A stretch of DNA of 64,000 nucleotides, taken from the NCBI GenBank assembly GCA_964036045.1, contig OZ038381.1, positions 154,708,352-154,772,351 on the forward strand, read 5' to 3'. The DNA is from Eutreptiella sp. 'Long Island Sound 2002' (Eukaryota > Euglenozoa > Euglenophyceae > Eutreptiales > Eutreptiaceae). Under the pieces are notes generated by a model. That model was not told where the DNA came from. It was given only the letters and a program-made list of their open reading frames with translations, and made no database searches. Every line of letters starts with the position of its first letter. The stretch's first letter is position 1. The translations under genes were made by a program, and so were the position numbers. This document shows, piece after piece, positions 7,101 to 63,754 of this stretch.

Positions 7101-9420
7101 AACAACAGCTCACAAGAGCGCACGCTGTAGTGCCGGTGCTTGGTCCCCACGCCCACACCAACTGCACCCGGGAAACACGGGCCGCGGAACCCCGGCAGCC
7201 CGCCCCAAAGGACGGGCGGCCGGGGGGGCGACAGCGCCTGACATCAGACGCCCCTCGCAACGGTGGAGGGTCACCCCCCCCGGAGACGGTCCCCCACCAC
7301 CCTCGCGGCACACAGGTCCCCGCAGAGCACGCGAGCCAAGGGGACAGTGCTGTACCCCCACACCCGCACACCCGCGCCCACAGCACGTGGGTAGCGAACC
7401 CCGACAGCCCGCCCAGAGGGCGGGCAGCCGGGGGGTGAGGAGCGCCTGAACTCAGACGCCCCTCACAACGGCCGAAGACACCCCCCCCGGGGACGCCCTT
7501 CCGCCACCCCCACAGCGCTCAACAACAGCTCACAAGAGCGCACGCTGTGGGGCCGGTGCCGGGTCCCCACGCCCACACCAACCGCACCTGGGACACATGG
7601 GCGGCGGAACCCCGGCAGCCCGCCCCAAGGGACGGGCGGCCGGGGAAGTCACAGCGCCTGACACCAGACGCCCCTCACAACGGTGGAGGGCCACCCCCCC
7701 CCCCCCCCGGGGACGGCCCCCCACCACCCCCGCAGGGCATGCAGGCCAAGGGGATAGTGCTGGGCCCCCACACCCGCACACCTGCGCCCACAACACGTGG
7801 GTAGCAAACCCCGGCAGCCCGCCCGGAGGGCAGGCAACCGGGCGAGGGAAAGCGCCTGAACTCAGACGCCCGCCCCTCACAACGGCGAAAGGCACCCCCC
7901 CCGGGGATGACCTCCCGCCACCCCCACAGCGCGCAGCAACGACTCGCAAGAGCGCACGCTGAGGGGCCGGTGCTGGGTCCCCACGCCCACACCAACCGCA
8001 CCCGGGACACACGGGTCACGCAACCCCAGCAGCCCGCCCCAAAGGACGGCCAGCCGGGGGAGCGACAGAGCCTGACATCAGACGCCCCTCGCAACAGTGG
8101 AGGGTCACCCCCCCCCGGAGACAGCCCCCCACCACCCCCGCGGCACACAGCTCCCCGCAGAGCACGCAAGCCAAGGGGACAGTGCTGGGCCCCCACACCC
8201 GCACACCTGCGCCCACAACACGTGGGTAGCAAACCCCGGCAGCCCGCCCGGAGGACGGGCAACCGGGGGAGGGAATGAGCCTGAACTCAGACGCCCGCCC
8301 CTCACAACGGCGAAAGGCACCCCCCCGGGGATGACGTCCTGCCACCCCCACAGCGCGCAGCAACGACTCGCAAGAGCACACGCTGAGGGGCCGGTGCTGG
8401 GTCCCCACGCCCACACCAACCGCACCCGGGACACACGGGTCGCGGAGCCCCGGCTGCCCACCCCACAGGATGGGCAGCCGGGGGAGGGACAGCGCGTGAC
8501 ACCAGACGCCCCTCACAACGGTGGAGGGCCACAGCCCCCCCAGGACGGCGTGCCACCACCCTCGCGGCGCGCAGACCCCCACGGGGCGCGCAAGTCACGG
8601 GCACAGTGCTGGGCACTTGCACCTGCACTGCCGCGCCAACCGCCGGGTAGCCGGGGAGGAAGACGACCCGAATCCGGGCGCCCCTCACAACGGCGACAGG
8701 GACCCTGGGTCCCCAAGCCCACACCAACCGCACCAGGGACACACGGGGTGCAGAACCCTGGCCGCCAACCCCTCAAAAGGCGAGCGGCCGGGGGAGGGAC
8801 AGCGCCTGACGCCAGACGCCCCTCACAACGGTGGAAGGCCACCCCCCCCGGGGACGGCCCCCCACCACCCCAACCGCACGCAGCCCCTCGCGGGACATGC
8901 AAGCCAAGGGAACAGTGCTGGGCCCCCACACACAGCACGTTGGTAGCGGGCCTGGGGAGGGACAGCGCCTGAATGCAGACGCCCCTCGCAACCGCACAAG
9001 GCACCCCCCCGAGGGCGCCCTCCCGCCACCGCCGTAGCACGCAACAACGGCTCGCAGGGAAACATGCATGCTGAGGGGCCGGTGCCGGATCCCCACGCCC
9101 ACGACAACCACACCCGGGAAACACATGCCGCGGAGCCCTGGCCCCACGCCTCGAGGGACGGGCGACGGTGTATGCCCATCCCCCCAGAGACGCCCCCCCC
9201 AACCCCCGCGGCACGCAGCCCCTGGCAGGGTATGCAAGCCAAGGGGACAGACACTGGGCCCCCACGCCCGCGCACCCGCGCCCGCAACACGCGGATGGCG
9301 GACCCCGACAGCCCGCCCAGAGGACGGGCAGCCGGGGACGGGGGAGCGCCTGACCTCAGACGCCCCTCGCAACGGCACAGGGTCACCCGCGCCACACGGA
9401 CAACAGGGGGAGCGCCTAAC
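4200..9420. repeat. tandem array, about 420-bp dimeric unit, about 12 copies
   Basis: The anchor CAGCACG (or CAACACG) recurs at 4230, 4438, 4860, 5282, 5700, 6121, 6541, 6961, 7381, 7791, 8216, (8640 degraded), 8934 and 9285, giving a period close to 420 bp. Each unit contains the phrase AGACGCCCCTC twice, about 210 bp apart, in two diverged versions, so the unit is a dimer. The first interval (208 bp) is one half-unit. Each half holds a short GC inverted repeat (GCCCGCCC...GGGCGGGC). The unit length is a multiple of three, which explains the long artificial frames on both strands. The array stops directly upstream of the LINE-1 ORF1. Confidence 0.9.
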
Positions 9421-14499: not shown

Positions 14500-16305
14500 C
14501 GGCTCACCGAGGAACTGCAAGGTGCATCGCCCGGATTCCGCCGGGCCACGCAGGGCCAACTACAGGAGGAGCTGGAGTGGCAAGCAGCCGCCTTCGAGAA
14601 AGACATTCGCCACCTGCGCGCGCTCCTGGCGGTCGACCGCAAGCGTGCCAGCAAAGACTTCTGGCGCCGCCACGCCCAGGACATCGCCCAGCGATGGAAA
14701 GCCGTGCGAGGGGCCATAGAGGTAGAGACCCCGGGCCCGCCGGGCCTCTGGAACGTGCGGGTCCCCAACACCCAAACGCTCCTCACGGAGGCCCACGACG
14801 TGATCTTCACGGTTCGCGCCTTCTGGCGGGAACTGTACGACAAACGCCCGGTGGACCTCCCCGGTTTCCAGGCGGTCCTCGGCCGCCACGTGCCCCGGGT
14901 CCCTGAGGGGGCCTGGGCCCGGGTCCAGCAGTACTCCATGCAGGACCTGCAGTCCGCATTGGACAAGGCCGATGGCAAGGCCCCAGGTCCCAACCACGTG
15001 GAGGCCCGCTTCATCAAGGCCCTCCCAGCACCCCTCCAGTGGCTCCTGGTCCACGCCTACCGGGCCATCCTCCGCGGCGCCCCACCGCCAATGCACTGGA
15101 GGGACGCGCACATCTGGCTCAGCCCCAAGGTGCCGGGCTCCGCCAGACTGGACGACTACCGGCCCATAGCCCTGGTCCAACTGGACATGAAGCTGCTCAC
15201 GGGCCCCCTCACCCAGCGCATCACGGAGGTACTCACACGGCACGGCGTGGTCAGCAACTGGCAGCAAGGGGCCCTCCCCGGCTCCAACACCGGCCCTCCC
15301 CTGATCATGGCGCAGTGGCAGCTCCAGCGGGGAAGGCCCAACTACGTCTTCATCTTCGACGCCCGCAAGGCCTTCGACACCGACCCGCACGGCGCCCTCC
15401 ACCTCATTCTGCGCCACCTCTCCGTGCCGCCAGAAGTCATCGACCTCCTGCTCTTCCTCCACACATGCGCCAGGCTGCGCATCGTCACCGCGCACAGGCT
15501 GACGCAACCCGTCCACATGCTGCGCCGCGTCCGGCAGGGCAACCCCGAAAGCCCCCTGCTGTACGCGCTCCTCCTGGAGCCCCTGCTCAGGGCCCATGGG
15601 CACCGCCTGCGTCCGCCCGGAGAGGCCGAACGGGGCCTCATCCAGGCCTGCATCGACGACCTGCTAGTAGTGGCCCACACGCTGCAGCACTTCGTCGAAG
15701 GCGTGGAGGCGGTGGCGGCGTACCTAGGGATGATGGGCGTGGAGCTCAGCCCCCGCAAGTGCGCCATGGCCACCAAAGAGGGGGTCCCGGGCCTGCAGCT
15801 GCACCTCTGCCCCCACCTGGAAAACCCGTGGCACTGGGTGCCGGCGGCGGACTCCGTCCCCTACCTGGGACTCCAGCTGCAGCCGGACGGGGGGTTCCCC
15901 CTGCAGCACAAACACCGCCTGCGCCTGGCGGCGGTGCACCACTGGTGCCTCAACACCCTCGCACCGCCGAAGGTGGTACAGGACATCATCCTGGCGATCC
16001 TAGGGGGAGCGACGCAATACGTCGCCCCCTTCATCGCCGACGACTCCGACACCGCGCGCCACCTGGACCACATCACGGTCCAGGTCGCGAAGGACAGGGC
16101 GCGGTACGCCTTCGACGCCTCGCAGGACAGCCTGCAGGATGTCCGGACCCTGGGGCTTACGCGCGTGCCAACGCGATGCCAGCAGGCAGCGTTGGCACTT
16201 GTGGGCACGCTTGTCCACCACCGCTCAGCCTCCGTGCGCGCCAGCGTCACCAGGATGTTCTGCGAAATAGCCGGTGTGCACAGAATATGCCCCGAGGTAC
16301 ACTAA
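14500..16305 (+). pseudogene. LINE-1 reverse transcriptase domain
   Basis: The open frame is continuous from about 14.5 kb; its first ATG is at 14704. RT landmarks are PGPNHVEARF (fingers), a palm motif A FIFDARKAFDT, motif B RQGNPESPLLYALLLEPLL, motif C ACIDDLLVVA (both aspartates present) and SPRKCAMA after it. The core would synthesise cDNA from element RNA. The frame ends at TAA 16303-16305, but sense-like peptide (VLKFATLAGGDWVHRIPW) follows in the same frame, so this stop is probably a mutation. The domain itself looks undamaged. Confidence 0.88.
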
Positions 16306-29171: not shown

Positions 29172-29185
29172 TCTGCAGCTTGACC
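29172..29185. repeat. LINE-2 target-site duplication, left copy
   Basis: TCTGCAGCTTGACC, identical to 37328-37341. The 14-bp length is usual for target-primed LINE insertion. Confidence 0.9.
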
Positions 29186-29475
29186 CCTTTTGCACATAGA
29201 CACATTTTGAGTTCGGTGAAGACTGTTCGATCAAATTTACACTGCAAAACTACTTTACAGCAGAACCCAGTAGGCAGAGTCACCCGATGGATGCCCCTTA
29301 CGCCATTGGGTCAGTGGAAATTCGGGTGCTCGGCGCCTCAAGATCCTGCAGGGCGTCCGCCGGCACATGAGGGGGTGATATATGCAATATATCATGAGAG
29401 TTGGATGTGCATTCGAGACTGTAAGCGAAGCTCGGCTAACAGAGGGTACTTTCGACTGTGGTCAGGGTGGAATAG

Positions 29476-30144
29476 CTAGCTACATCGTGTGGAATTACTG
29501 GAGGCATGAGGAGAGACATACAACAGGTTCAGGCCGCTAGTTCGGGGGGAAGAATCTGTCGATCCGAGGCTGTTTGGGATCAGGAGGGTGTGCGGCCGGG
29601 GGGGGGGGGGCGGGTTCACTGCGTTTTCCCCCTTTGTGCTGCGCCTGGGCTCCGTCACGTCGGGGCGTCTCAGGGGGAGGAGGGGGGGGGGGACCGGGGC
29701 CCATAGGCTGCAGGTAGGCGTCCAGAGCGCGTTGCGCTGCGCTGGGCTTTGCTGGCTTGGGCTGTGCCGGGGGGGGGGGCGTTTTTTCCGCTGTGGTTGA
29801 TTCGAGGCTTTGCGCATCGGGGGTGTCAACACCGCCGCACGCAGGGCCGAGGGGGGAACGTATTTTGGCGGGTCCCGGGGGGCATGGCCTCTGCAGGTAC
29901 TGAATTCACCCAGGGAATCAAAATAATTGTTTCTGGTTACTGGTGGGCCGATGGCCCCGGGCGGGTTGTCGTGGAGAAATTTGTTGGCGTCCTCGATGAG
30001 TGGTTTGAGCGCCCTATTGCATTTAACCAGGGCGCTGTCAAAGTCCTTAGCATGCATAGCGGGGTCCTTGCCTGACGGAGCGTTTTTGGGACGAGCGTTC
30101 TGGTAGCGAGTCGTCTGTCCCCACGGTGGCTGGCTCTCCACCAT
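29476..30144 (-). CDS. LINE-2 third ORF, function unknown
   Basis: A 222-codon frame starting MVESQPPWGQTTRY, 29 nt after the ORF2 stop and inside the LINE borders. The first 75 residues have balanced composition (MHAKDFDSALVKCNRALKPL; NKFLHDNPPGAIGPP). The rest is Pro/Ser/Arg-rich. It ends at TAG 29476-29478. No domain is recognised. It could be a real downstream ORF or an extension of ORF2 beyond a mutated stop. Confidence 0.4.
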   Translation of the reverse strand: MVESQPPWGQTTRYQNARPKNAPSGKDPAMHAKDFDSALVKCNRALKPLIEDANKFLHDNPPGAIGPPVTRNNYFDSLGEFSTCRGHAPRDPPKYVPPSALRAAVLTPPMRKASNQPQRKKRPPPRHSPSQQSPAQRNALWTPTCSLWAPVPPPLLPLRRPDVTEPRRSTKGENAVNPPPPPRPHTLLIPNSLGSTDSSPRTSGLNLLYVSPHASSNSTRCS

Positions 30145-30173
30145 TCGAGTGCTAATTTGTCAAAAGAGGGGGG

Positions 30174-33100
30174 TCAGGCGCTGGAGAGACACTGCTGGAA
30201 CCACTGCATGGTGGGACAGAGGGCGCAGAATGAGATGGGATCCATCGGGTGCACTTCTTGACATTTAGGGCATGTTCGGTCACTGGTGTCACAGTGAGGT
30301 CTGTAGTCCTGACAACCATACGTGCCTGACACCCACTTGAATGCGATTGCCGAGAAAAAGCTGCTCTGTCGGAGAAAGCTTGCGCTGGTGCCGAAGTGCA
30401 GGCGCGTGTGTGGGTGGGTCGGGAAGAGGGAGCGGGTGTGGTGTTTCGGGATTTTTGAGATGAGGGCTAGGCCCCCACTAGTGACCACTCCCGCAGGGGG
30501 GGGGGGGTAGGAGGGAGGGGTGCCACAGTAATGCCTGAGCGGCCCATTTTGGGAAGTAGTCCGCGAGCTCGTTTCCCATAAAGTGTGCGTGGCCCTTGAT
30601 CCAAGCCACATGGATCAGGTGGGGGAGGGGGGCGAGGAGGGATGTGTAGGCAGTGTCTCGTGTGCCCTGTGTGTAAGTGGACGGCCTCGCTGGGGGGGGG
30701 TTGGAAAGGGCCCGGTTGACCGCTTCGACTGTGTCAAGGTTATCACCCAAGATCACCACCGGAGTATTGGGGAGGATGTTGGGGAGGTGAGCTAACGCCA
30801 TTGCCATGGCCCATTGCTCAGAGCCCCCTGAAGTGGGCGAGGGTGACGAGCGGCAGAGGACGTAACACTGTTGTTGCCAAAAGATAGTGAAGGCGCTGCC
30901 ATGGCCCCCATCACCCGAGCTTCGATCTGTATAGATCCACGCCGTGTCATCAAAGGGGAGCTCGGCGACGAGGTTAGCCGCCTTAATGCACCCCCACCCC
31001 ATTAGATCCTCATGGTTTAGAACGTGGCGGAGGTTAGGCAGGTGGAACCAGTGTCCTTCACAGGTGCTATCCATGAGGTCCGCTTGAAGAGGAACCGGGA
31101 TGTCGGGGTAGCGGGTTTGCGGGGAAGAGAAGGGTGGGAAAAGGTGGTAGTGGGTTATGTCACCCCGGGGGAGAGGACAGGTGTTGGGGGGGGTGAAGGT
31201 GAAGTTACTCTGTTCCGTGATGGTAGCGGATTCCCCCGTGTCGAAGCAAATGGTGGCTGTTTTTTTGTAGACTTTGGTAACCGTGGCCAGGCAGGGGGGG
31301 GCATTTCGGGGTGCAGCATACAGTCGTTCTCGCTCGTGCAGTTCACAGGGGAGGCAGGGGTTCCATGGTCCAGGGGCGTGGAATCAAAGACTCAGGCGGT
31401 TGGCCGCATCCAGGAAGCTATCTTGAAGGGCATTTTGCCGTGTCAAAAGGAGGGCGTCTCTAACTGCCACACAACTGGCCGGGGGCCCCTCCTGGTTCAG
31501 GTACCTTAGTCCCGCCTCAACAAAAGACTTGTGAACCGCTATTCCCAGGTGGCGGAGGCCTAGCCCCAATTTAGCACGTGGCTGGTATATGTCCTTAGTG
31601 GAGACTTTGGGCGAGATTCTGCCATGCGTAGCAAGCTCTTTCGAGACCGCTGCCGTGAGCTCATCTATTTCGCTGGGGAGAAAAGGGTGGGCAATGGGGC
31701 GGTAGGTGAGGATTGGTATTAGTTGGACATTCACCAGTTCAACCAGCTCAGGGAGGGTGAGGCCAAGCGGGGAAAGGTGTACGAAGTAGCTGCTCAGTTC
31801 TGAGTGTATTTGGTGTCGGAGTTGCGGGGGGTGCTTATCGTTGTAGATGTAAACACCCAGGTATTTGTAGCCCTTTCGTGGCTGTTTGGTATCCGGGTCG
31901 ACAGTAGAAAGTGTGAAGCCGCTTGGGCTCTGGAAGTCATGCTGTGGGACGCCACCCAGGGCGTGCACCTCTGACTTGTCACAGTTCAATTGGAGCCCCC
32001 ATGTCCTGGCGTCCGTGTCATAGAAGTCAATTAACTTTTGGATGTAGGTTTGGGAGGGTGATCGGTACAATTTGTCATCGATGAAAGCGTGTGCTGAGGT
32101 CTCGGCGGGTCTCTCCAACGGAGAGGGTTGAGGGGCTGCATGGAGCAGCACGTTAGAATAAAGGATGAACAGGACAGGGGACATGGGGCAGCCCTGGCGG
32201 AGGCCCCTGGTTTGGAGGTAGTGGTAGGGTGTGACATTGCTGACAAGAGGGGCATCCTGGGTGTGGGCGTAGAGTCCACTGATCAGGTCTACCAGTCCCG
32301 CCGGCATTCGATAGTGGTGGAGGACCCGACGGAGGGTGGGGTGGGGAACGCTGTTAAAGGCCTTGTTAAAATCAATGTAAAGATGGTAGGCCTGGGGGTT
32401 TCGGGCGATTTCTGCCGTGACGTGAAAAAGGTGGTCCATGGTTCGGAAATTCGGCATGCCCCCGTGTTGGCTGTGGTGCATGAGGGAATGATCTCTGATG
32501 AAGGTTTGGAGGGCGGAGGCGGCATGTCGGGCCACTAGCTTGTAGACAGTGTTTAAAAGGGCTATTGGGTGGTAGTTTGCGGGGTCATGGGGGCATTTTT
32601 TCTTGTAGATCAAACATACTTGGGCGGTCGTCCAGTGGGGAGGCAGGGGCTCATGCAGGAAGCGATTTACCATGAGAAAGAAGAGCGTCTGCAGGTGGGC
32701 GGGGAGGACAGAGAGCAGGTAGGTGTTGATGTGGTCATCTCCTCCTGCCTTGCGTGGGTTAGCCGAGTGGAGGATGTCGGTGAACTCTGACCATGTCATG
32801 TCCGGGATGTCCTGAGTTCCTGTGCCCGAAGGGCACTGGGGGGTGTGGCTCAGGAGGCGCTCTGTGAAATCGTCGGGGGGGGTGCAGTCAGGCGAACCCC
32901 CCAAGTGGAGGAGCGTATCGGAAAATATCTTTGCAACCTCCTTGGTGTCTGTAGCAAGGGTTCCGTCAGAGCGCCTGAGGGAGATTGGAGCCTGATCCGG
33001 GGGTTGGAGGTGTTTCTGGATGGCACTCTTGAGTTGGCGGCCCTGGACGATCGCTCTGTGTACCGCGGTCCGGGCCGATTTCTGTTTTGCTTTCTGCCAT

Positions 33101-34420
33101 TCATCGAGGTAGTCATTGAGCTGCCTCATTTTTTCTCCAATACGGGGGTGGGAGGCTGGGGGGAGGGCATTGGCCAATTGGGTGAATTCTTTCTGAATTT
33201 TTGACGGGGCTGTCCCTCCCGCCAGGGTGGTAATCGAGTGGTAGGCCTCTGAGCACTCTCGGAGAATGGCGTCCACTATCGGGACCAGGTCAGAGGTCGG
33301 GACGTCAGGGAGGTGTTTGTTAAAGTCCTCACACCATTTCTCGAGGGGTTGCAGTCCCCCTTGAAGACGGAGCAATTCCTGTTTCTTTAGCCTTCGGAAG
33401 CGTTTACGGGGGGGTGGGGGGGGTTGTGTGGGGATGAGGGGTGAGTGAAGTTGTGCTGTGACAGGGTGGTGGTCGGTAGAGCAATCACCATAGAGAATTG
33501 AAGCGTCAGCAATTTTTCGGTCATGGAAGAGGCTCCTCGAAGCAAAGATGTAGTCCAATCTGTTCTTAGACGCCGGTCGGGTCCACCCCAGGGCAGTGCT
33601 GTGCATGTGTCGGTACGTATCGATCCATGACGGGTTACTGTCCGATGTTTTGGAAGTGACCCATGCCCACGGGTTGGAGTCGGCGTGCAAGGAGTCTAGA
33701 TGGGGATTGCGGATGCAGTTGAAATCACCACCCACCACATGGTAAGGGTATCGGGAAAGAAGACGCGACAGGTTGATTTCAATCAGGGGGCGCCTGGTAA
33801 TTGCGGGTGGGGGCGAGTAGAGAGAAGTGAAGAGTGTGGGGGGGCCGCCCGGGAGGGTTATTTCAACCGAGCACATGAGTCCATCGTTGTCCGAGTTCGG
33901 AACAAACTTTGTGTAGCGCCGCAAAGCCGAAGAGACCACGATGGCAATGCCATTCTTCTTCTCTCTCTTGTTGATGTTGGTGAAAATTTTGCATTTTTCC
34001 CCCCCGTGGCTAAAGATGTGTGGGAGGCTGGGCTCTTCGTTCAGTTCCTGGAGGAGCAAGACATGGTATCCTTTTTGTAGGTGGTGGAAAATGAAGGGGG
34101 TGGGGGGTTTCTTTTCCAGGTTGTGTGAAAGGATTTTGAGCGTGGGGGGCGGGGGGTTGTTGAGCTTTGCAGCTGGGCGCACATATCCCTTGCTTTGCCT
34201 CCAACTGGTCACGGGAGGAGGCTCAAGACCAAAGCAAGCCAGATCAGGCAAGCGTGATGGTCGCGGGTTTTTAGGAGTGGGGCGGGGGCGGAGGGGTTCA
34301 GAGGATTCAGGGGGGGTGCTCAAACGATGCGCGCCGGGTTGAGGGACGCCGAGGCGTTGAAGCAGTTCGCTAAGCTTGCCCGCTGCCGTCTTGAGTCTCG
34401 GCGTCAGGCTCGGCGTCTAG
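30174..34420 (-). CDS. LINE-2 ORF2: APE endonuclease, reverse transcriptase, RNase H, zinc finger (minor breaks)
   Basis: Main frame 34420-31384, then the same frame continues past one TGA (31384-31386, after RLSL) to about 30500, where a poly-G run shifts the frame into 30174-30500. Endonuclease: KILSHNLEKK, LLQELN, VVGGDFNCI, NRLDYIFAS, STDHHPV. RT: LYIDFNKAFNSV, RQGCPMSPVLF, AFIDDKLY. RNase H (30.7-31.0 kb): IYTDRSSGDGG, SEQWAMAMAL, LGDNLDTVEAV, WIKGHAHFMGNELADYF, with all four catalytic positions visible. Zinc finger: CDTSDRTCPKCQEVH...FCALCP. There is no in-frame ATG ahead of the endonuclease. The frame overlaps the end of ORF1 by about 50 nt, so translation probably depends on frameshifting or reinitiation. 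Confidence 0.88.
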
Positions 34421-36712
34421 AGCACACTGCACGTTGCGAAGGATGACCGCCACTCGCCGGTCCCGAGGGACTTCGGCCCCATCCACCAAATCGCTCATGC
34501 GGTAGGGCACCTGATGCTGCCATTGTTCTCGAAGTTCTCCCGTGACTTGGAGGGCTGAGTATCGTGGTACCCGGACACTCACCACCGGGCCATTTCCTTT
34601 ACGTAACTCCATGGTGGTAGCCCCCATGAGTGAAATCGAGGTGATAGTGTCGCCTAGATCATCGATGTCCTTATGCCATCCTATGCCCACCCCAGGTTCA
34701 TAGTCGTTCACGCTGACTTGGTTCGGCTGTACCGCTAGCAGGGGGATGTCCTCCGAGTCTTTAGCGTCCATGAGGTTGTCGATGAGATTCATGAGCTCCG
34801 TGGGGAGCTCCTCCGCTCGTTCGAGGGTGTGGGAGGCATCCACATACTCCCATCCGTAGTGCAGCTTGCCTCTTCGGGTCTCTCGCTCCCATTCCTGCTT
34901 CTGGAGGTAGGCCATTAGGGTGGTCTCCATAGTCATGTCGATGACGTCCTCGATAATGCGTAAGCCCGTGAGGTCTTCCTCCGTGAGGTCCTCCGGTTGT
35001 CGATCTTCTTGTCGCGGCGGGCGGCGAGGCGGGCGTAGGAGTGTTTGATGCTCCTTGTAGTTGGCGATGTAGTCCTTGAGGAAGGCCCCCGCGCCGACGT
35101 TCAGGCCCGCTCGCACTCGTGCTTCCGCCGGGCGATCCCCCTCAGCCACCGAGGGGTCGAGTTGTAGGAGTGTGTCAACCTGTAGATAAGGTTGGAGCGG
35201 GTGAAAGGAAATGGGGCCCATAGCAAAACCCGTGGCAATTTGAGCGGATTGGAGCTTCTCATAGGTGACGGAGTAGAAGCTTATAGGAGGATTTTCGGAT
35301 CTCGAGTGGAGTTCAAACCGCGTGAATGGGCCTAGGAGACCCGCCGCACATTGAATGTCAAAAAGTGAGGTCGTGTTGGGCGCTTGGACATCCACTTCGT
35401 TTGGCTCTCTCTGACTAGGCATCGGCGGCGGAATAGAGACCATGGTCGGCGGAGATTTAGGGTGAGCATCCTGCTTGCCTCCTTGTCCAAATGCATTGAA
35501 GGTGATCAACGCTCCGTCCTTTGAGGTGCACATTACCATCGCTCCATTAGTGTGGAGGAAAGACGCAAAGGTAGAGAGAGGCGAGCGCCCTTCGTCACTT
35601 GGGGTATTGCTAAGGTCCAATCGGACTATCACGCTATCCCGGCTCTTGATTGACGTGCCCATGACACAGGTGCGCCCTCGTCCCCCAATCATGTGGCCCA
35701 TGAGGGTGTTCATGATCTCGGTGGGTGTAAATTCTCCCTTGTGGCAGTTTCTCTCGTTGCGTGACGGGTTCACAAAAAAAGAGTGTTGGTCAACCATTTG
35801 TGCCACCTCAATCACATAGAATCGCCCTCGTAAGAAATCTCCATGCTCCAAAGCCACGGACATAAGTTCGTTTGCAAGAGCCGGAGCCATGGTATAGTCG
35901 TACCGATAATAATTTGGGTGTGGTGCACGAAGGGCTTCTCCGTTCTCAAAATAATATTTGCAATTGGTGGTAGTCGCCGCGCCCTCAAAGTCCGGTGCAA
36001 GGGTATTGTTCAACCATTTGTAGAAGTCCCGCACGTTGCCTAGCTCCGCTTTCGTTCGAGTGTTGGTGTCTTCGTGGTCACTCGGGATCTCTCGTTGATC
36101 AATGATCTCTCGTAGCACGTCAAATCGAAGTAGGACATGCGCTTGCTCTATATCCAAGCTGGTACTTTGATGTACGAAGCGACGTACGCTCGAGGAGTGG
36201 TCAACTGTGACGCTCGGGTGCTTAGACGGAGCATACCATGATTGGGAATGAAGTGGGTAGGCGATGTATGGCACGGCGAGAGCATTCCCGAAAATGTATT
36301 GGGCGTTCTCAACGTTTTGGTTGCCGGGGATCCACCATTGCTTTGCATTATGGAAGCTAAAGCGTTGCGTAATAAAGGGGCGTAAGGGAGTGAGAAGCAA
36401 ACGGGGGTCAACCAACAAGCAATTTTCCGCATTGCAATTTTTAATGGGCGCCGGTAACATGAACCATCCCTCGAACTCTTCGTTGCGCGAGCGGGCTAGT
36501 TGAAGGGCGTGTCCTATGGAGGCCGCCCAATCCGTCACGGTCTCTACGGTGGTTCCCAAGTCTTGCTCCACGTAGTTGTACGGCACCGGGCACACTAGGA
36601 AGGTCTTGCGGATGTGCAAGATATCATAGACGTGCGCCAGGTCTTCGTGTGCACAATTTGAGTAGAAGCCCGAGCCTTTCGTATAGTGGTGTTGAGTTCC
36701 GTGAAAGAGTTC
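34370..36712 (-). CDS. LINE-2 ORF1, main part, with C-terminal AlkB-like 2OG-Fe(II) dioxygenase domain
   Basis: About 780 codons ending at TAG 34370-34372. The last 120 residues (about 34430-34740) contain the AlkB core: VNDYEPGVGIGWHKDIDD with the HxD iron site, SISLMGATTMEL, VPRYSALQVTGELREQWQH with the distal iron His, and RRVAVILR with the Arg that binds 2-oxoglutarate. AlkB proteins oxidatively remove methyl groups from RNA or DNA bases. The upstream 600 residues match nothing I recognise, and no RRM or zinc knuckle is evident. The frame extends upstream of the first listed residue as YSNCAHEDLAHVYDILHIRK, joining the N-terminal part after one frameshift. Position inside the LINE borders shows the domain belongs to the element. 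Confidence 0.85.
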   Translation of the reverse strand, partial: ELFHGTQHHYTKGSGFYSNCAHEDLAHVYDILHIRKTFLVCPVPYNYVEQDLGTTVETVTDWAASIGHALQLARSRNEEFEGWFMLPAPIKNCNAENCLLVDPRLLLTPLRPFITQRFSFHNAKQWWIPGNQNVENAQYIFGNALAVPYIAYPLHSQSWYAPSKHPSVTVDHSSSVRRFVHQSTSLDIEQAHVLLRFDVLREIIDQREIPSDHEDTNTRTKAELGNVRDFYKWLNNTLAPDFEGAATTTNCKYYFENGEALRAPHPNYYRYDYTMAPALANELMSVALEHGDFLRGRFYVIEVAQMVDQHSFFVNPSRNERNCHKGEFTPTEIMNTLMGHMIGGRGRTCVMGTSIKSRDSVIVRLDLSNTPSDEGRSPLSTFASFLHTNGAMVMCTSKDGALITFNAFGQGGKQDAHPKSPPTMVSIPPPMPSQREPNEVDVQAPNTTSLFDIQCAAGLLGPFTRFELHSRSENPPISFYSVTYEKLQSAQIATGFAMGPISFHPLQPYLQVDTLLQLDPSVAEGDRPAEARVRAGLNVGAGAFLKDYIANYKEHQTLLRPPRRPPRQEDRQPEDLTEEDLTGLRIIEDVIDMTMETTLMAYLQKQEWERETRRGKLHYGWEYVDASHTLERAEELPTELMNLIDNLMDAKDSEDIPLLAVQPNQVSVNDYEPGVGIGWHKDIDDLGDTITSISLMGATTMELRKGNGPVVSVRVPRYSALQVTGELREQWQHQVPYRMSDLVDGAEVPRDRRVAVILRNVQCALDAEPDAETQDGSGQA

Positions 36713-37239
36713 TTTTTGTCGGAGACGTTGAACTCATGGTTCCATTGGCAAGTGTCCCATAATTTTCGCAACGTGGCACACGTGTGGATTCGCTTCTTGG
36801 CATCATACGCCATGTTGCCTTGCACTTTGATGCTTCGTGTTCGAGATATGAGGAGTTCGGCGTTGCTTTCAACGGAAGCCCATCGTTGTAGGGCCGTAGG
36901 CGCCGCTTGATCAATATGTGAGTATTGTCCAAAAATGAGCGGAGAACCGCTAGGCGAGCGTGGATGAAGTTTTTTATTTTTTGGCAAAGTGGGATGTTTG
37001 GAGTCATCAATATCCATAGAATTTTGCGTTTGAGAAGCATTGGACCAACCAAGGAGCGTGTATGGGCTTGGGAACACAGTAGCGTGAAAATAGGCGCGTT
37101 CACGTCGGAATTGCGTAAAGGGACTAGAGAGTGGCAAAGACGAGAAATGTCGGCGACGGCGGTGAAATAGCGTAGGTGGCACGATCAATGCCAACCAAGG
37201 TAGATGCTCAAATTTCGGTGAAATGCGCCCAAATGCCAC
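36700..37239 (-). CDS. LINE-2 ORF1, N-terminal part (frameshifted from the rest)
   Basis: ATG at 37239, 89 nt inside the element's 5' end; a second in-frame ATG at 37017 starts MDIDDSKHPTLPKNKK. Coding character is good up to NHEFNVSDKKNS near 36712, after which the sensible frame becomes the one leading into the AlkB ORF (FHGTQHHYTKGSGFYS). A one-base change near 36712 or a small programmed shift would join them. No domain is recognised. Confidence 0.6.
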
Positions 37240-37327
37240 TAGTACTGGACGGCTTATTTTTTGACTAGTGGTGCGACATTGTTAATCTGAAGGGGCAATC
37301 GAAAAAAAATAGACACTCAGAAAGTGA

Positions 37328-37341
37328 TCTGCAGCTTGACC
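37328..37341. repeat. LINE-2 target-site duplication, right copy
   Basis: TCTGCAGCTTGACC, identical to 29172-29185. It encodes GQAA plus part of the next codon in the interrupted exon. Confidence 0.9.
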
Positions 37342-42856: not shown

Positions 42857-43856
42857 TTTTCCGGGTCGAACTCCGGCAATTCCAGCCGGATGTTCGCCAG
42901 GGCAATGGGTCTGCCACTCTTACCACCCCCTGGGGTTAGGCCTGAAGGGGGGGGGGGTACGCCGGCGAGGGGTGCCATGGCTGACAGCCCTCTTTTCTCA
43001 GTCTCTGTCACAGACACATCCTGTAGTTCAGCGATAGGGACTGTCCTGACGCGAGGATGAAAAGGGCTGGGGCAAGTGACCTTGGGTAGCAACCTGGACG
43101 CCCTTGATCTTTTGAGATCTTCAGCCAGTGTGCTCAGTCCGGGTGAGGGTGAGGCCAGTGCTGGCTGGGGTAAGGCTTCATTGATACCCAATTTAGCTTT
43201 GACAGCCTCAGAAAGGGCTGTCACATCGGGGTCTTCGGACCCAGACAGTAATTTAGCCAGTAGTTCGTCCCTACGATCCAGGGCCCGGCAAGTTGGCTCT
43301 GCGACATGGGGATCTTTTGCAGGGCTCCTGCTAGTGTTTGGCAGCTCTGGACGCCATACTGGCCTTCTCGGGTGCCTGGGTAGAGACACTGTGCTGGCCG
43401 GGTCCGTAGGTGGGCCGGAGTAAGGGTAGGAACCCATGTCCGTGTACGGTCGGGATCCCAACGCGTCTAGTGGTTCCTCTCCATCTTTGCCTCTGACGGA
43501 CTTGTAGTACTCCCCGTGGGAATATATTCGTTGATTCTCCTTTTAAATTTGTCTTGTTCCTCAGGTCCTCCAGCTGGAGTAGCCGTTGAAGAAGAACCAG
43601 GGCAAACAGATCGGGAGATAGACGCAGCAACTCTTCGGCGGAGATGCTGCAGGCTGTCACCACGGGCCGCTAAGGCCTCTGTGGTTAATCTGGGCGCTTC
43701 TTGCTCCGCTCTTCTGTTTACTGGATCTTCTTGAGACCCAGATGCAGCTCTGAGCCTGGGCTCACTCATTGAGGTGGGCCCACTGTTGCCAAGTTGAACT
43801 TGTACACTCCGACTTGGCCAGGTCCTGGCATACATCTGTACTGATGGTGTGGACAT
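42857..43856 (-). pseudogene. gag of family A copy 2, proximal fragment
   Basis: ATG at 43856 (MSTPSVQMYARTWPS). It parallels copy 1 and the intact copy 3 up to LELPEFDPENL, where the DNA transposon begins. Frames change at about 43.46 kb and 43.33 kb, and a frameshift near 43.5 kb follows RINEY. Continues at 28051-28307. Confidence 0.88.
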
Positions 43857-43917
43857 TTTGTTTCTGGTTTTGGCTTGTGTACTTCTCAGAGTCGGTTCAA
43901 AGGGTTCTCAAGGGTTG

Positions 43918-43929
43918 CCTCTGCTACCG
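43918..43929 (-). other. primer-binding site, family A copy 2
   Basis: Minus strand CGGTAGCAGAGG, matching the 3' end of initiator-Met tRNA except for its first base. Confidence 0.65.
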
Positions 43930-44667
43930 GAAAGATGTCCTTGATTAGTGCCCTAATGATTTTGATGAAATCCTGCAGGTTCTGATGTTGAAAACCCAAA
44001 CCAAAGCAGTAAGTAGAGCAAGAAAAGGATGTGGATCGAATCAATGAATAGTTTTGAAATCCAGTGTATCACAGAAGGGCTGCAGACAGACAAAGCAGGC
44101 TTAAATACAAACATTCAATCACAAATGGATAAAACAAATGATTTTAAGTGAAAACTCGCCTGACTCTAGCCTCCAAGTTAGCATCAAGCATTTCATGTGC
44201 ACTCTTTTGGATTAAATGGAGCTGGTTAGGAATGTGGGGCAAAGGAGTTAGGCGAGACACAGAATATGACTTGGCCAAGCAACTGAATTCAGAAACAGTT
44301 AAAAAGTAGAACCACAATAAGTGGTAGAAACAGTTGAGTAAAGGGGTCTTGGGATGGGGGACCACTAGGCTTAACCTCCAAGGGCTTAGGCATGAAATGC
44401 CTATTCAATTTGTGTAGAACCTCCATGAAGGAAGATACCTCCGCTCAGTTGAGTGGTAGGGGTGAACTTCATGGGGGGCTAGGGTTATAACCCTAGTTAC
44501 TTTGAGAAAGTGTACCTTGAGCTTCAAAAGAGAGATAAAAATAGTTAAGTAAGTCTTAGCATCAACAAAAGGGTTTTAAGGGGGGCTTGGCCTGGATCAA
44601 GCCCTCCAAGAAAGACATGGCTGTGACTTTTTCTTACTCTTTGTTAGGATACAAGGGGATATCTACA
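43930..44667 (-). repeat. 5' LTR of family A, copy 2
   Basis: 738 bp, closely matching 1285-2025; sense strand begins TGTAGA. The downstream LTR of this copy is absent from the window. Confidence 0.82.
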
Positions 44668-54481: not shown

Positions 54482-56953
54482 CTATTTCCAGTTCCAGTGG
54501 CCCAGGGGTACTAGGACCCACTTGTCGTCAGGGTAGCTGTGCTTGAGAGTTCCATCTCGGTTGAGACCTTCAGTCCCCCATTGGGAAATAGCCGAGTCGA
54601 ACTCCTCCTTCTCTAGTGCTTGCCATTGGAACAACGTTCCACCACCGCCCACATTGCTGGCTTCAGTCACCAGGATACTCTTCCCTTGTGCTCTAGGCAC
54701 ACCCAAGCACTTAGCGTTGGCCACCTTGTCTTTGAGCTCGTCAAACGCTTGTTGCTCTTGTGGGCCCCAGCGCCAAGTAGTACTCTTCTTGATCAGGTCT
54801 GTCAGAATGGCGCTGGTGTAGGTGAAGTTTTTGATATGGCGGCGGTAGAAGTTGCACGCGCCAATGAAACTGCGTACATCATGAAGTCCCTTCTTGGGGT
54901 CTTCGTGTCGTACCTTAGCGTCCATCAGGGGTTTGGCCTTAGAGGCCGCTGGGGTCCACCACCCATAGCCAACGCCGAACCCCAGGTACTGCATGGTCTC
55001 CTGCATGAACTCACACTTCTCCAGCTTGAGTCGTGTGTGGTTCTCTTGGCAGACTGCAAAGAACTCACCCAACAGGATTAGGTGATCCTCCTGGGTATTG
55101 GTCCCGAGGCATACATTGTCGATGTGTGCTTCCATCTGGGCCCCACGGGATATGAGCTCTTGCACCTTGGGTCTTCGTCGTAGGATGGACAGGATCTTGT
55201 TCATCAGCTCTTGAAAAAGAGCAGGTGCGTTGGCCACGCCAAAGGGCATGACCTTCCACTTGAACAACCTCCCCTGAGGGGTGATGAAGGTGAGTAGTTC
55301 CTGGGCGTTAGGCGTCAGGTCCACCTGCCAAAATCCACTTCTCTTGTCCATCTTGGTCTTGTAGCGACAGGAGGCTATCTTCTCAAGGGTAGACTGCATA
55401 TTAGGAATGGACTCTGAGTGGTTCAGCGTTTTCTTGTTCAGCTCTCTGTAGTCCACTACCAGCCGTTTGGCTGTAGACCCAGGTTTAGCCACCAGGAAAC
55501 AGGGGCTGCAGTGTTGGGGGTAGTCCCCGTCCCTATACTCCAGAACTAGGCCAGCGTCGATACATTCTTGTATCTGTCGCTCAATCTCGTCGGCCTGCTC
55601 TTTAGGAGCGAGATAGGGTCTCCTCGGGATCTTATGGCTCACGAACTGGGGTTTCAGCTTGAGGTCCATCTGTACCAGCTTGTCACATGAGGCTGGGGGT
55701 GGTAGTTCCCCGAACACCTCCAGATAGGTCCTTATAAGCTTCTGCACCCGCGGGTCCAACAGCTTGATCTTGTCCTCCATGTCCTCGTCAGGGTGTAAGT
55801 TGCTTGCCCCCTGAGTAATAGACGTCAGGAGGTGATCCTCCACCGACTCTTCGCCCTTGGTAGTATCCTTCACCCCTTGGTAGGCACAAAGTAGGTCTCG
55901 TTCAACCATCTCCGGTGGACGATGGCCACATAGGCACGCTCGAGGGGGTTCACATACACATTCCTCCGAGAGGTCGTCCTCCTCTGGGGTCCTCACATGG
56001 GCACCCCACACCCTCTTCGTGAGCTTAAGATCTACCTCCCTTTGCCAGGTGGTGATCTTCTGTTCGAGGTCCTCCTTCAATTGGGATAGATCTCCCATAC
56101 GTCCTTGCTTCAGTGGCCATGAGCTGCGGGTAGGCTTAGCGTAGCATAGCTTTTTCGCCACCAACCTCCTCTTGGAGTCCACGTACTCTCTTAGCCTGGA
56201 TCGGGGATCCAGCTCCTCGTCCACGGGGTCTTCCAGCCTCATGGAGAGTAGGGATTTCAGTGGGGCGACGTACTCGGCGTTCTCCACTTCATCCACACAT
56301 GTCTGCACGAAGAAGGCGTCATGCTCAGTTTCGTCATCTGAGTGGATAGAGCTGGGGAGCTCGGATAGTCCACACTCAGAGACTCCATCGGGAGCAGGTA
56401 CACGGCATGGAGAGTGGGGAGCATTGGTGTTAGTCACGACGTATTCATCTCTACCGGGTATAGTCTCAATAGCATCTTGAGGTCGTAGTTGATCTTTCAA
56501 GTCGCCCAGGGTAAGTCCATCGCTTTCTCGTTGTATAGCCTGGACCAGAGTCGAGTGCAGGTCCTCCCAGGGGATGGAGGTAAGACCTCCGTCCACCACG
56601 CTGAGCATACTTCCCCATCCGGGTTTCCTGATGGGCGTCTTACGCCCCAGAGGCACGTATATGGCCTCATCAGGTAACCGAACAGAGCTGATAGTCAGCC
56701 TGTCCAGGAGGGTTCGCCAGTACTCGTTGCCCCTGTGGGCTCCCCAATGGGGGGAACACAGGACCATACGGGAACGTTCCAGGGCCACCTTGGTCAAGAC
56801 CTTCCCCAGTCCACTGAACCTGGGGTTCCCGTAGGCCATCCCGAAAGAGGGCCAGTAAAATTTGTAGCTGCAGTTTTTCCCCTTGCTGCAGTAAAGGTCC
56901 AAGACATGTTGCTTGTCGCTGGCGAACAACTCCACACTCAGGTCTTCTCTGGA
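54482..56953 (-). pseudogene. chromovirus reverse transcriptase with long N-terminal spacer; active site IDN
   Basis: In frame with the protease ORF across one TAG at 56954-56956. The first 400 residues are a spacer with a Cys/His-containing stretch (CVCEPPRACLCGHRPPE). RT begins at about KLVQMDLKLKPQFVSHKIPR. Motifs: KRLVVDYRELNKKT, YKTKMDKRSGFWQVDL, FKWKVMPFGVANAPALFQ, then EAHIDNVCLGT where Y/F-x-D-D is expected. The second Asp of the metal-binding pair is Asn, which would abolish or strongly reduce polymerisation. QYLGFGVGYGWWTP follows. Ends at TAG 54482-54484. Confidence 0.88.
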
Positions 56954-60752: not shown

Positions 60753-61463
60753 TTTTAGTAAGAAAACGTCACTGCCATGTCTTTCTTGGAGGGCTTGATC
60801 CAGGCCAAGCCCCCCTTGAAACCCTTTTGTTGATGCTATGACTAACTTAAGTATTTTTATCACTCTTTTGAAGCCTTTGGTACACTTTCTCAAAGTAACT
60901 AGGGTAGTAACCCTAGCCCCCCATGAAGTTCACCCCTACCACTCAACTGAGCGGAGGTACCTTCCTTCATGGAGGATATACCGAATTAAAATAGGCATTT
61001 CATGCTTTAGGCCTTGGAGGTTAAGCCTAGTGGTCTCCCACCCCAAGGCCCCTATACTCAATTGTTTCTACCACTTATTGTGGTCCTACTTCTAACTGTT
61101 TCTGAATTCAGTTGCTTGGCCAAGTCATTTTCTGTGTTGGCCTGACATCTTTGCCCCACATTCCTAACCAGCACCATTTCACCCAAAAGAGTGCACATGA
61201 AGTGCTTAATGCTATCCTGAAGGCCTGAGTCAGTCCAGTTTTCATATCAAATCTTTTGTATTATCCATTTGTGATTGAATCTTTGTGTACAAACCTGCAT
61301 TGTCTATCTGCAGCCCTTCTGTGTTACACTGGATTCCAAAACTAATCATTAATTCGATCCACATCCTGTTCTTGCTCTACTTGCTGCTTTGGTTTGGGTT
61401 TTCAACTTCAAAACCTGCAGGATTTCATCAACATATCTAGGGCATGAATCAAGGACATCTTTC
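60753..61463 (+). repeat. 5' LTR of family A, copy 3 (5' end missing)
   Basis: Matches copies 1 and 2 from AGTAAGAAAA onward, but lacks their first 35 or so bases, which are replaced by the family B LTR. Ends just before the PBS. Confidence 0.8.
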
Positions 61464-61475
61464 CGGTAGCAGAGA
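61464..61475 (+). other. primer-binding site, family A copy 3
   Basis: CGGTAGCAGAGA; same position and same first-base change as in copies 1 and 2. Confidence 0.65.
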
Positions 61476-61546
61476 CAGTCCCTTGTGACCTTTTGAACCG
61501 ACCCTGAGAAGAAGTGCAGCACACAAAGCTCAACAACAAGTTCATC

Positions 61547-63754
61547 ATGTCCACGCCAAGCGTCAGGACCTGGCCCATAAGAACTGTCCAAGTACAAATG
61601 GGCAGCATGGCCCACCCTATGAGTGAACCACCTTATCGAGCTCCACAACATCTCAGTGGCGCATCTGGGTCCCAAGGAGATCCAGATCGCAGAAGGGCGG
61701 AAGAAAATACAGGCCTTACCACCGAGGCCTTAGCGGCACACGGTGGAGACAGCCTTCAGCATCTCCACAGGCGTGTAGCAGCCTCAGTCTCCCGATCCGC
61801 CTGTCCGGCTTCATCCTCAACAGCGATTGGAGGCCCTGAGGAATACGAGGGGCTGAGGGGGAAAATGGATGAATACATCCTCCATGAGGAGTACTACAAA
61901 TCCATTCGTGGAGAAGATGGGGAGGAGGCATTGGCAGTACATGGATCCAGACCACGTACAGACCTAGGGTCCTACACGCACTCTGGCCCGCCGTCCGACA
62001 GAGCCGAGACAGCATCCCTGCGGAGACGACCGAGACCCGAGTATCCAAGAGCATGTTGTCCAACCCGAAGGGCTCCCGAAGTGGGCCCGACTCGAGTTGA
62101 GGAACAACATCATCCAAGGCCAACCTACGGTGCCCTGGATCATACGGCCGAACTGCTGGCCAAACTTCTGTCTGGATCAGAATATCCAGATGTGACGGCC
62201 CTATCAGAGGCCATTAAGGCGAAACTGGGTATTGCAGAACCCTTACCCAAGCCAGAGCTGTCCTCCCCCTCTCCCGGACTGAGTACCCTGGCCAAAGATC
62301 TTAAGAGATCAAGGGTTTCAAGGCTGTTGCCTAAGGTCACCTGCGCCAGCCCCTTTCACCCCCGTGCCAGGACAGTGCCCATGGCTGAACTACAGGACGT
62401 GCCTGTCACAGAGATTGAGAAAAGAGGGCTGTCAGCCCTAGCACCTCTTGCCGGCGTGTCGCCTTCAGGCCTAACTCCGGGGGGTGGGAAGACGGGCAGA
62501 CCTATTGCCCAGGCGAACATCCAGCTGGAACTGCCAGAGTTCGACCCCAAAAATCTGCCCGAATGGGCAGAAGAATTTGCTGAGTTCCTTTTGCTGACTG
62601 GCCAATCCCATGTGGATGTGGCCACCAAATGCTCACTGCTGAAACGCTCATGCAAAAAGAAATTTTTGCAAAAAAAGGTGAAACAGATTGTGAAAACCTG
62701 TTCCACCTGGGCAGAGGTACTCCTCAGGTTGGAGAAAACATTCCCAGTCTATGAGACTGACCTCAGTGTGCGCACACAGATAGAGGAGCTACCTATGCTC
62801 CCTGAGTTTCCTTCCGCTGCGCGAATCTCTGAATACGTGTGCGACTTGGAGTATCTGTTTTCACGGATGAATGTGGGCTCCTACGGAGCCACTGAGCCCC
62901 ACCTGTTGCTCATGAGTAGAATCCCCCAATGTACGTGGGATGATTGCCGCTCTACCTCTGAGAGGAAGAGTCGGACCCACTCGTACGATGAACTGGTGGA
63001 CCTCTTGATTGAGCAGGCTCTTGAGAGGGAGAATGACTCCCACATGGAGAAATTTCTCAAGAAGCACTTGGGTCGAGGTGGAACCCCTACCCCCGAACTT
63101 GGGGAAGGGAAAGGGCCTAAAAATCCCACTAAGGCCAACCAGGGAGGTGGGAAGGGGAGGGGTAACCTACGTGCCATGAATGAGGTTAATCCTGATACAG
63201 GTACACCCCCTCTGTTCTACTGCAAACCTGTCAATGACAGGGGGGGTGCTTGTCATGCCTCTGACTGCGATCGCCGCAGTAGCTGTATGCTGCAGATGAA
63301 ACGACAGCAGCATACCAAGGGTGGGAAACCTGTGACCCATCAGGACCATTTCAGGTGTACCATCACCTGTGGCTATTGTGGCAAACGTCGTCACTACGAG
63401 GACGAATGCCACATAAAGAAACCGGAGAGTGACAAACTCAAGCGTCAGGAGGCAGAACGCCAGAAGACCCAAACACCCACCAGAAATCCCCCGAATGGGG
63501 ATAAAGGTGGTAAAGGAGGTGGCAAGGTGGGTGGCAAAAATGGACCCCCTAACCCCCAGAGGCGCTCATCAGCGCCCGTTGCTACACCCACTCCTGCTGT
63601 TACACCCGCTCCTGCCGCAGGTGATCCTAAGAAGCGCCCCCAGGGGGATAACGCTACCCCTGAGGGGAATAACTCCAAGAAGAGGCGCTTGGCCTGGATG
63701 GCCAGGTCCCTCATTGCTGCAGCGGTGGATGTCAAGTTCCCTGATGAGGAGTAG
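61547..63754 (+). CDS. family A gag, intact
   Basis: ATG 61547 chosen because MSTPSV is shared with copies 1 and 2; an ATG 33 nt upstream is also in frame. 735 codons. Order: Ser/Arg-rich N-terminus with coiled-coil-like stretch (about 60-130), proline-rich middle, capsid core from LPEFDPKNLPEWAEEFAEF (about 335) through LVDLLIEQALERENDSH (about 510), a CDRRSSC pair, CCHC knuckle CGYCGKRRHYEDEC (about 615), then a Lys/Gly/Pro-rich basic tail. Role: particle assembly and RNA packaging. Ends at a single TAG (63752-63754), with protease continuing in the same frame. Confidence 0.9.
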   Translation: MSTPSVRTWPIRTVQVQMGSMAHPMSEPPYRAPQHLSGASGSQGDPDRRRAEENTGLTTEALAAHGGDSLQHLHRRVAASVSRSACPASSSTAIGGPEEYEGLRGKMDEYILHEEYYKSIRGEDGEEALAVHGSRPRTDLGSYTHSGPPSDRAETASLRRRPRPEYPRACCPTRRAPEVGPTRVEEQHHPRPTYGALDHTAELLAKLLSGSEYPDVTALSEAIKAKLGIAEPLPKPELSSPSPGLSTLAKDLKRSRVSRLLPKVTCASPFHPRARTVPMAELQDVPVTEIEKRGLSALAPLAGVSPSGLTPGGGKTGRPIAQANIQLELPEFDPKNLPEWAEEFAEFLLLTGQSHVDVATKCSLLKRSCKKKFLQKKVKQIVKTCSTWAEVLLRLEKTFPVYETDLSVRTQIEELPMLPEFPSAARISEYVCDLEYLFSRMNVGSYGATEPHLLLMSRIPQCTWDDCRSTSERKSRTHSYDELVDLLIEQALERENDSHMEKFLKKHLGRGGTPTPELGEGKGPKNPTKANQGGGKGRGNLRAMNEVNPDTGTPPLFYCKPVNDRGGACHASDCDRRSSCMLQMKRQQHTKGGKPVTHQDHFRCTITCGYCGKRRHYEDECHIKKPESDKLKRQEAERQKTQTPTRNPPNGDKGGKGGGKVGGKNGPPNPQRRSSAPVATPTPAVTPAPAAGDPKKRPQGDNATPEGNNSKKRRLAWMARSLIAAAVDVKFPDEE

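Follow-up and report, generated by a model that had tools for sequence, protein, structure and literature searches.

The 64,000-nucleotide stretch of the euglenophyte Eutreptiella sp. 'Long Island Sound 2002' analyzed here (assembly GCA_964036045.1, contig OZ038381.1, positions 154,708,352 to 154,772,351; hereafter the window) contains a long interspersed nuclear element (LINE) whose first open reading frame (ORF1) ends in a predicted AlkB-type 2-oxoglutarate (2OG) and Fe(II) oxygenase domain. Our preferred reading, to which we give a probability of roughly 0.6, is that this oxygenase acts on modified bases of the element's own RNA and thereby aids full-length copying. From the sequences of related elements in the same genome, the domain looks to have been present in the ancestor of a LINE clade and retained since, and not to be recent cargo.

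An AlkB domain at the end of ORF1

An earlier note, made from the letters of this DNA alone, had read an AlkB signature in the C-terminus of ORF1, and profile, sequence, and fold comparisons now agree on that assignment. The window ORF1 matches PF13532 (2OG-FeII_Oxy_2) over residues 587-726 (E=2.6e-12; score 47.8 bits, curated cut-off 31.2), its C-terminal 226 residues reach 51 bits on their own, and 2 other copies of the same family (family 1), L024 and L026, score 53.2 and 34.7 bits. The H and D in GWHKDID, the H in QWQHQ, and the R..R in RVAVILR lie where the note had placed the HxD, distal His, and Arg motifs:

34415..34966, minus strand: AlkB-type 2OG-Fe(II) oxygenase domain, residues 552-735 of a 749-amino-acid frame (PF13532, AF2 model, Foldseek)
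34673..34675, minus strand: first iron-binding His of HxD, present in 21/21 copies
34667..34669, minus strand: iron-binding Asp of HxD, present in 21/21 copies
34514..34516, minus strand: distal iron-binding His, present in 20/21 copies
34436..34456, minus strand: RxxxxxR motif, first R in 19/21 and second R in 18/21 copies; we take these arginines to have a 2OG or substrate role

Among solved structures, the family-1 ORF1 matches human ALKBH8 (6.6e-14), Schizosaccharomyces pombe Ofd2 (1.8e-08), and NMAD-1 (0.00082) by sequence, and a small profile search of PDB returned them in the same order (58.4, 39, and 25.5 bits). Cyclin-T1, which appeared below the AlkB proteins in these searches at E 0.11 and above, was taken as chance. 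An AF2 model of the domain reached a pLDDT of 82.1 and a pTM of 0.77; it was built from a 12-row alignment (A4) and is therefore partly shaped by host AlkB proteins, although that alignment omits 4 host frames (L046, L048, L049, and L051). Both the model and its Foldseek matches have the double-stranded beta-helix of the AlkB superfamily. Ranks 1-15 of the Foldseek search against PDB were occupied by ALKBH8, Ofd2, ALKBH6, and NMAD-1 (E 9.7e-15 to 1.1e-11), with ALKBH8 at the top (E 9.7e-15, TM-score by query length 0.61), although the matches to ALKBH8 are distant at 24-27% identity. ALKBH5, ALKBH3, and AlkB came later in the ranking, below these 4, and ALKBH5 was absent from the PDB sequence matches of both families 1 and 2 at E<=1. 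Judged by sequence and fold scores, without a tree, the domain is not closest to ALKBH5. Against viral models, a pithovirus oxygenase ranked first (2.9e-17) and plant-virus proteins stood further down, the best viral fold matches being the pithovirus oxygenase and a marine phage protein.

No other Pfam domain, including RNA recognition motif (RRM) and methyltransferase domains, was found in ORF1 of families 1 and 2. A PHROGs scan of ORF1 proteins gave a single match at chance level (E=0.34), and 3 scans of viral contigs turned up no relative. A protein search with ORF1 found 2 proteins, P0001 and P0002, among 7996 scored candidates, and when the search words were restricted to the AlkB part, P0002 came up among 924 candidates; because these searches admit only lengths of 0.55-1.75 times that of ORF1, free-standing AlkB proteins were left unsampled. 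The iron triad is invariant in all 12 rows of an alignment of LINE and host AlkB sequences, 5 of them from family 1, and we consider it highly probable, on sequence and model, that the AlkB domain of intact copies is a catalytically active oxygenase.

Borders and anatomy of the window copy

The LINE borders are as exact as the earlier note had described them, marked by a 14-bp duplication, TCTGCAGCTTGACC, at 29172-29185 and 37328-37341. The interval that it gave, 34370..37327, covered a part of a larger element, which spans 29186-37327 and is represented in the window by a broken copy:

29186..37327, minus strand: whole LINE insertion, 8142 bp, with 14-bp direct repeats at both ends
29172..29185: target-site duplication at the element 3' end, 14-bp repeat TCTGCAGCTTGACC
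37328..37341: target-site duplication at the element 5' end, 14-bp repeat TCTGCAGCTTGACC
37300..37325, minus strand: spliced leader at the element 5' end, 26/26 nt identical to the Euglena gracilis spliced leader given in PMC6242988
34370..37077, minus strand: ORF1, split over 2 frames (open frames 34370-36733 and 36595-37281) and without an ATG in the window
31384..34416, minus strand: ORF2, endonuclease and reverse transcriptase part, an open frame (PF03372, PF00078)
33529..34104, minus strand: APE-type endonuclease domain (PF03372, E=5.8e-09)
31849..32601, minus strand: reverse transcriptase domain (PF00078, E=1.2e-26)
30478..31383, minus strand: RNase H part of ORF2, a separate open frame in the window copy, assigned to PF00075 by comparison with copy L024

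The upstream limit of ORF1 (37077) was set by comparison with copies that are open from an MFPSP start (8/21). The overlap of ORF1 with the endonuclease and reverse transcriptase ORF that the note had reported is present, at 47 nt (34370-34416) instead of 50. In the window copy, ORF1 switches frame near 36.6-36.7 kb, where P0001 and other copies are continuous, and has a non-ATG codon at the place where intact copies have their start. With its frames broken and its start codon changed, the window copy looks non-functional. The first Met of the ORF2 frame 31384-34416 (minus strand) occurs only at residue 181, within the endonuclease, so that translation of ORF2 may be coupled to that of ORF1.

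When the window flanks are joined over one 14-bp repeat, they read through the insertion point in one uninterrupted frame (...EEETVEKGQAA followed by EALAPAKRKSTGG...), from which it follows that the LINE insertion broke an open frame. The element has its endonuclease and reverse transcriptase within one ORF (PF03372, PF00078), target duplications of variable length, and dispersed copies without long terminal repeats (LTRs); a blastn comparison of the element with the window returned a single high-scoring pair and no terminal repeats at E<=1e-3. Target-primed reverse transcription would be a fitting mode of mobility for such an element. On the anatomy read from the sequence, we regard it as practically certain that this is a two-ORF LINE whose ORF1 ends in an oxygenase domain.

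Conservation and selection in family 1

The genome totals 2.28 Gb, and 60 of 2535 candidate places for family 1 were scored, the counts being lower bounds. Copies lacking the domain, which the note had named as the result that would tell against it, did not appear: all 60 places, the window included, cover the whole or part of the AlkB region. The match ends early or is broken in 4 of them (ends at residues 721, 694, and 681; a gap at 624-677), 26 have no stop within the match, and 3 have equal scores and are possibly duplicated sequence. A locus considered as a possible further family, L065, was rejected as another family-1 copy. The 20 copies that were fetched were not a random sample (19 had no internal stop and L026 was picked for its divergence), and therefore the motif, open-frame, and dN/dS (ratio of nonsynonymous to synonymous substitution rates) figures below lean to better-kept copies.

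The 5' border is common to 19 of the 20 fetched copies, with alignments starting at element position 1 to 4; that of L019 starts at position 579. Direct repeats of 13-18 nt stand at both borders in 12 of the 15 copies examined, no more than 7 nt away from the spliced leader and 11 nt away from the 3' tail motif. L009 has a 10-nt direct repeat only, and L019, which has no leader, was outside this search. In L011 (with L030), a 64-nt direct repeat abuts the leader but begins 61 nt past the 3' tail; a little flanking sequence may have been copied with the element. A run of at least 4 A follows the 3' tail motif in 13/15 copies, separated from it in 2 cases by a single other base or pair; the remaining 2 copies have AA only.

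An ORF1 of 902 or 916 codons is open from the MFPSP ATG in 8 of 21 copies, a count that required an exact MFPSP, with some other copies open but different at the start; the ORF1 stop is at the identical place in all 21. Copy L024 has a continuous ORF2 of 1584 codons with endonuclease, reverse transcriptase, and RNase H (PF00075, E=1.9e-07), and the ORF2 relatives P0005-P0010 are 34-42% identical. The catalytic residues are kept in most of these copies, with the iron triad intact in 20/21 and all 5 motif residues in 16/21. Loss of the distal His, like that of each Arg, is spread over individual copies.

Pairwise dN/dS was calculated by the Nei-Gojobori method for the AlkB part and for ORF1 residues 1-530. 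Between the main group of copies and L022/L024 (36 pairs) the values are 0.090 for the AlkB part and 0.123 for residues 1-530, between the main group and L026 (18 pairs) 0.116 for both, between L022/L024 and L026 (2 pairs) 0.120 and 0.108, and between L022 and L024 (1 pair) 0.037 and 0.070. Within the main group (153 pairs) they rise to 0.275 and 0.330, which is what decay after insertion would give. Since the values for the 2 parts are similar, selection on the AlkB part appears to be about as strong as on the remaining ORF1.

AlkB domains in other LINE lineages of the genome

A genome search with PF13532 gave at least 151 matches from 1107 candidates (150 scored), and all matches listed exceed the cut-off. 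Some are other AlkB genes, such as an ALKBH8-like gene, L058 (E=5.9e-33 to human ALKBH8). Another AlkB frame elsewhere in the genome, L046, also has a CCCH zinc finger.

Two further LINE lineages carry the domain. In family 2, a group with long open frames that was sampled at L064, an ORF1 stretch of 857 codons, open at its 5' end, has AlkB at its end (45.1 bits) and is overlapped and followed by an endonuclease frame (PF03372, 1.6e-11). The ORF1 proteins of families 1 and 2 are 24% identical over 826 aligned positions (E=3e-59), and the AlkB parts alone 31% identical. The PDB sequence matches of family 2 are ALKBH8 (8.5e-13), Ofd2 (6.1e-08), ALKBH7 (0.0048), ALKBH3 (0.017), and NMAD-1 (0.49). 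From the genome search for family 2, 53 of 2733 candidates were scored (a lower bound); the 52 places besides the query are 95-97% alike, 25 of the 53 share a frame length of 1142 codons exactly, and 36 of them lack an internal stop. In the third lineage, L059, the AlkB frame is 222 codons long and scores 58.5 bits to PF13532; its identity is 28% with family 1 and 34% with family 2. It overlaps a frame homologous to the endonucleases of families 1 and 2 (33% and 36%), a piece that the Pfam scan did not recognize.

The AlkB domain thus stands just before the endonuclease ORF in 3 diverged LINE lineages of one genome, and the whole sequenced ORF1 is homologous in 2 of them, which argues that the common ancestor of these LINEs would already have had AlkB in ORF1. 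Repeated capture is a less simple explanation for families 1 and 2 because the homology extends over the whole sequenced ORF1; L059 may have captured its AlkB separately. The earlier note had called the domain cargo of the element and not a host gene. That it belongs to the element is borne out by the borders and by the direct repeats in 12 of 15 copies, but "cargo" is too weak a word, since the domain holds the same position in all 3 lineages. A host AlkB gene carried along by chance, or an artifact of assembly or of a neighboring gene, has a negligible probability: LINEs can carry flanking sequence, but target duplications (12/15), a common 5' border (19/20), the same ORF1 stop (21/21), purifying selection, and a homologous AlkB-ended ORF1 in family 2 all speak against it, and target duplications, copy number, and dN/dS rule out a host gene, an assembly error, and inert cargo.

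A spliced leader at the 5' end

The sequence CACTTTCTGAGTGTCTATTTTTTTTCG (37300-37326, minus strand), which lies close to the first base of the element, contains the 26-nt spliced leader whose E. gracilis sequence is given in PMC6242988. This leader at the element start is newly noted here. It is present at the 5' end within 4 edits in 20/21 copies and exactly in 10/21. The 5' end of family 2 is known from one copy (L066), which has the leader with 2 differences and, immediately behind it, the last 18 nt once more in exact form. In a control with the family-2 500-nt stretch, a leader match with <=5 errors occurred in 0 of 200 letter shuffles.

Because copies begin with the spliced leader, their template would be a trans-spliced mRNA or a descendant of one. 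The tandem leaders of family 2 are a possible trace of repeated trans-splicing onto a leader captured earlier, and the single leader of family 1 may be added anew every round or may stem from one capture and have been transcribed ever since.

Possible function of the oxygenase

ORF1 proteins of LINEs are generally regarded as RNA-binding chaperones, and those of other LINEs bind the RNA of their own element. If the ORF1 protein described here did the same, its AlkB domain could oxidize modified bases on the element RNA inside the ribonucleoprotein, removing marks that would stop or mislead reverse transcription or flag the RNA for host control, with the outcome that full-length copies would be made. 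The domain probably helps the elements to multiply, given that its key residues are kept across distantly related families. The narrower claim that element RNA is the main substrate we put forward tentatively, at a little under an even chance.

Several observations weigh against the preferred reading or limit it. No recognized RNA-binding domain was found in ORF1 (Pfam, and NCBIfam on 2 ORF1 proteins), and an AF2 model of the whole of ORF1, from 11 close sequences, is uninformative (pLDDT 27). At least one of the 5 motif residues is lost in 5 of 21 copies, as dead copies would show. The pairwise dN/dS values are non-independent and come from copies picked mostly for open frames, and the deepest comparison depends on L026 alone, a copy with 2 stops. 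L059 is a single locus in which no ORF1 portion preceding the AlkB part could be found, and by sequence it weakly matches solved AlkB structures (Ofd2 0.0037, ALKBH8 0.0047). The substrate is not readable from sequence, and catalysis is predicted. To our knowledge, the nearest relatives (ALKBH8, Ofd2, NMAD-1, and ALKBH6) are not established erasers of N6-methyladenosine (m6A) in RNA, which is why we do not fix the substrate to m6A and rate element RNA no higher than we do. The note's term, RNA/DNA demethylase, goes beyond what the sequence shows, as the domain lies nearer to these 4 enzymes than to the m6A erasers ALKBH5 and FTO. Demethylating its own RNA also need not help a LINE, since human ALKBH5 suppresses human L1, m6A being an aid to L1 (PMC7873242).

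The alternative that fares best, although we consider it unlikely, is that the domain acts on host RNA, for example on tRNA wobble bases as ALKBH8 does, favoring translation of the element or altering the host response. ALKBH8 is the best PDB sequence match in families 1 and 2 and first by fold, and the genome has a separate ALKBH8-like gene (L058, above). However, ALKBH8 has RRM and methyltransferase domains beside AlkB, neither of which was found in the LINE proteins by the Pfam scan, and the Foldseek match to ALKBH8 is a distant one. Somewhat less likely again is an action against DNA methylation (N6-methyladenine or another alkyl mark), at the target or in newly made copies, by which silencing would be lifted. 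One of the best matches by both sequence and fold is NMAD-1, whose structure was deposited under the name of a DNA N6-methyladenine demethylase, but it scores well below ALKBH8 and Ofd2 in the profile search (25.5 against 58.4 and 39 bits) and reaches only E=0.49 for family 2. We think it improbable that the domain is kept as an RNA-binding or assembly fold with dispensable catalysis; the loss of the distal His in 1 of 21 copies and of at least one Arg in 4 others would allow it, as would the fact that catalysis is predicted from sequence, but the iron triad is identical in 3 LINE lineages despite 28-34% domain identity, and the losses are scattered over single copies.

Within the preferred reading of an oxygenase that acts on the element's own RNA, a more specific proposal, which we rate as a long shot, connects the domain with the leader. 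The AlkB domain might clear base methylation including that of a hypermodified spliced-leader end, so that the reverse transcriptase would reach the first nucleotide and the leader would be kept. Base marks on leader ends are an assumption carried over from the kinetoplastid cap 4. If true, a LINE would carry a demethylase of its own that renders its RNA fit for copying, and the oxygenase-bearing ORF1 would be the founding trait of the LINE clade.

Comparison with known elements and enzymes

In the titles and abstract beginnings of the papers that searches of an open-licence library listed, we found no LINE with AlkB, although one may be described elsewhere; the only AlkB-bearing element there was an orchid Ty3/Gypsy retrotransposon (PMC9289625). 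The ALKBH5-like protein borne by this Phalaenopsis Gypsy element binds RNA and removes m6A in vitro, and the same paper relates that ONSEN RNA is demethylated and mobilized by ALKBH9B (PMC9289625). As in Eutreptiella, the orchid oxygenase is of AlkB type, encoded by a retrotransposon, and kept over several rounds of amplification. It differs in belonging to an LTR element, in being a separate extra ORF of ALKBH5 type, and in being called recent (PMC9289625), whereas here the element is a LINE, the domain forms the end of ORF1, the nearest relatives are ALKBH8 and Ofd2, and 3 diverged lineages carry it.

AlkB domains are also told of in plant RNA viruses of the Alpha- and Betaflexiviridae and the Closteroviridae (PMC9289625). 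These share with the LINEs a mobile RNA-based genome with AlkB, and the fold matches include several plant-virus proteins; unlike the LINE domain, theirs are viral proteins and involve no reverse transcription. The cellular enzymes ALKBH8, S. pombe Ofd2, ALKBH6, and Caenorhabditis elegans NMAD-1 share the fold and give the best sequence and fold scores.

With APE-type LINEs that have RNase H, the element shares the order of ORF1 and then ORF2 (endonuclease, reverse transcriptase, and RNase H), the target duplications, and the lack of LTRs. It departs from them in an ORF1 of about 900-1140 codons that has no recognized RNA-binding domain and ends in an oxygenase, and in a 5' end that is a spliced leader. 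Insect LINEs have acquired a viral-type SF1 helicase (PMC6338049), likewise an extra nucleic-acid enzyme domain, although the enzyme, hosts, and LINE clades are other ones. The E. gracilis genome paper puts LINEs at 1.49% of the genome and does not mention AlkB in its text (PMC11252322), and AlkB is also unmentioned in a paper on E. gracilis giant virus elements.

Other features of the window

The sequence GCGCGAGGC occurs at 8 places in the window (28658, 37796, 38932, 39912, 39967, 42357, 42415, and 42643), 7 of which have the palindromic core GCGAGGCCTCGC; several lie between open stretches of the gene interrupted by the LINE. Perhaps these places are ends of Euglena-type introns, which is a guess. 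A GC-rich block at about 4-28 kb, mostly 62-74% GC, contains a second reverse transcriptase ORF (14704-16302, plus strand; RVT_1, 64 bits) beside large ORFs without a Pfam match. The tandem array at 4243-8614 has a 212/420-bp period. At 54485-56935 (minus strand), a reverse transcriptase is followed by RT_RNaseH_2, an LTR-like element by domain type. A dispersed repeat occupies 1-2020, 42857-44664, and 60757-62763; the first 2 copies are 94% alike, and the third is inverted and 77-79% alike.

Implications

For the elements themselves, the spliced leader marks 5'-complete insertions and indicates that mature trans-spliced mRNA is, or was, their template. The ORF1 oxygenase was retained, with its catalytic residues kept, while 2 families diverged to 24% identity, which suggests that the success of LINEs is limited by modified bases, either in the template or in host nucleic acid. 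The multi-copy families, in which some copies have open reading frames, offer material for testing that limit. Taken together with the LTR elements of orchids, these LINEs make the acquisition of AlkB by retroelements look less like a curiosity and more like an emerging pattern.

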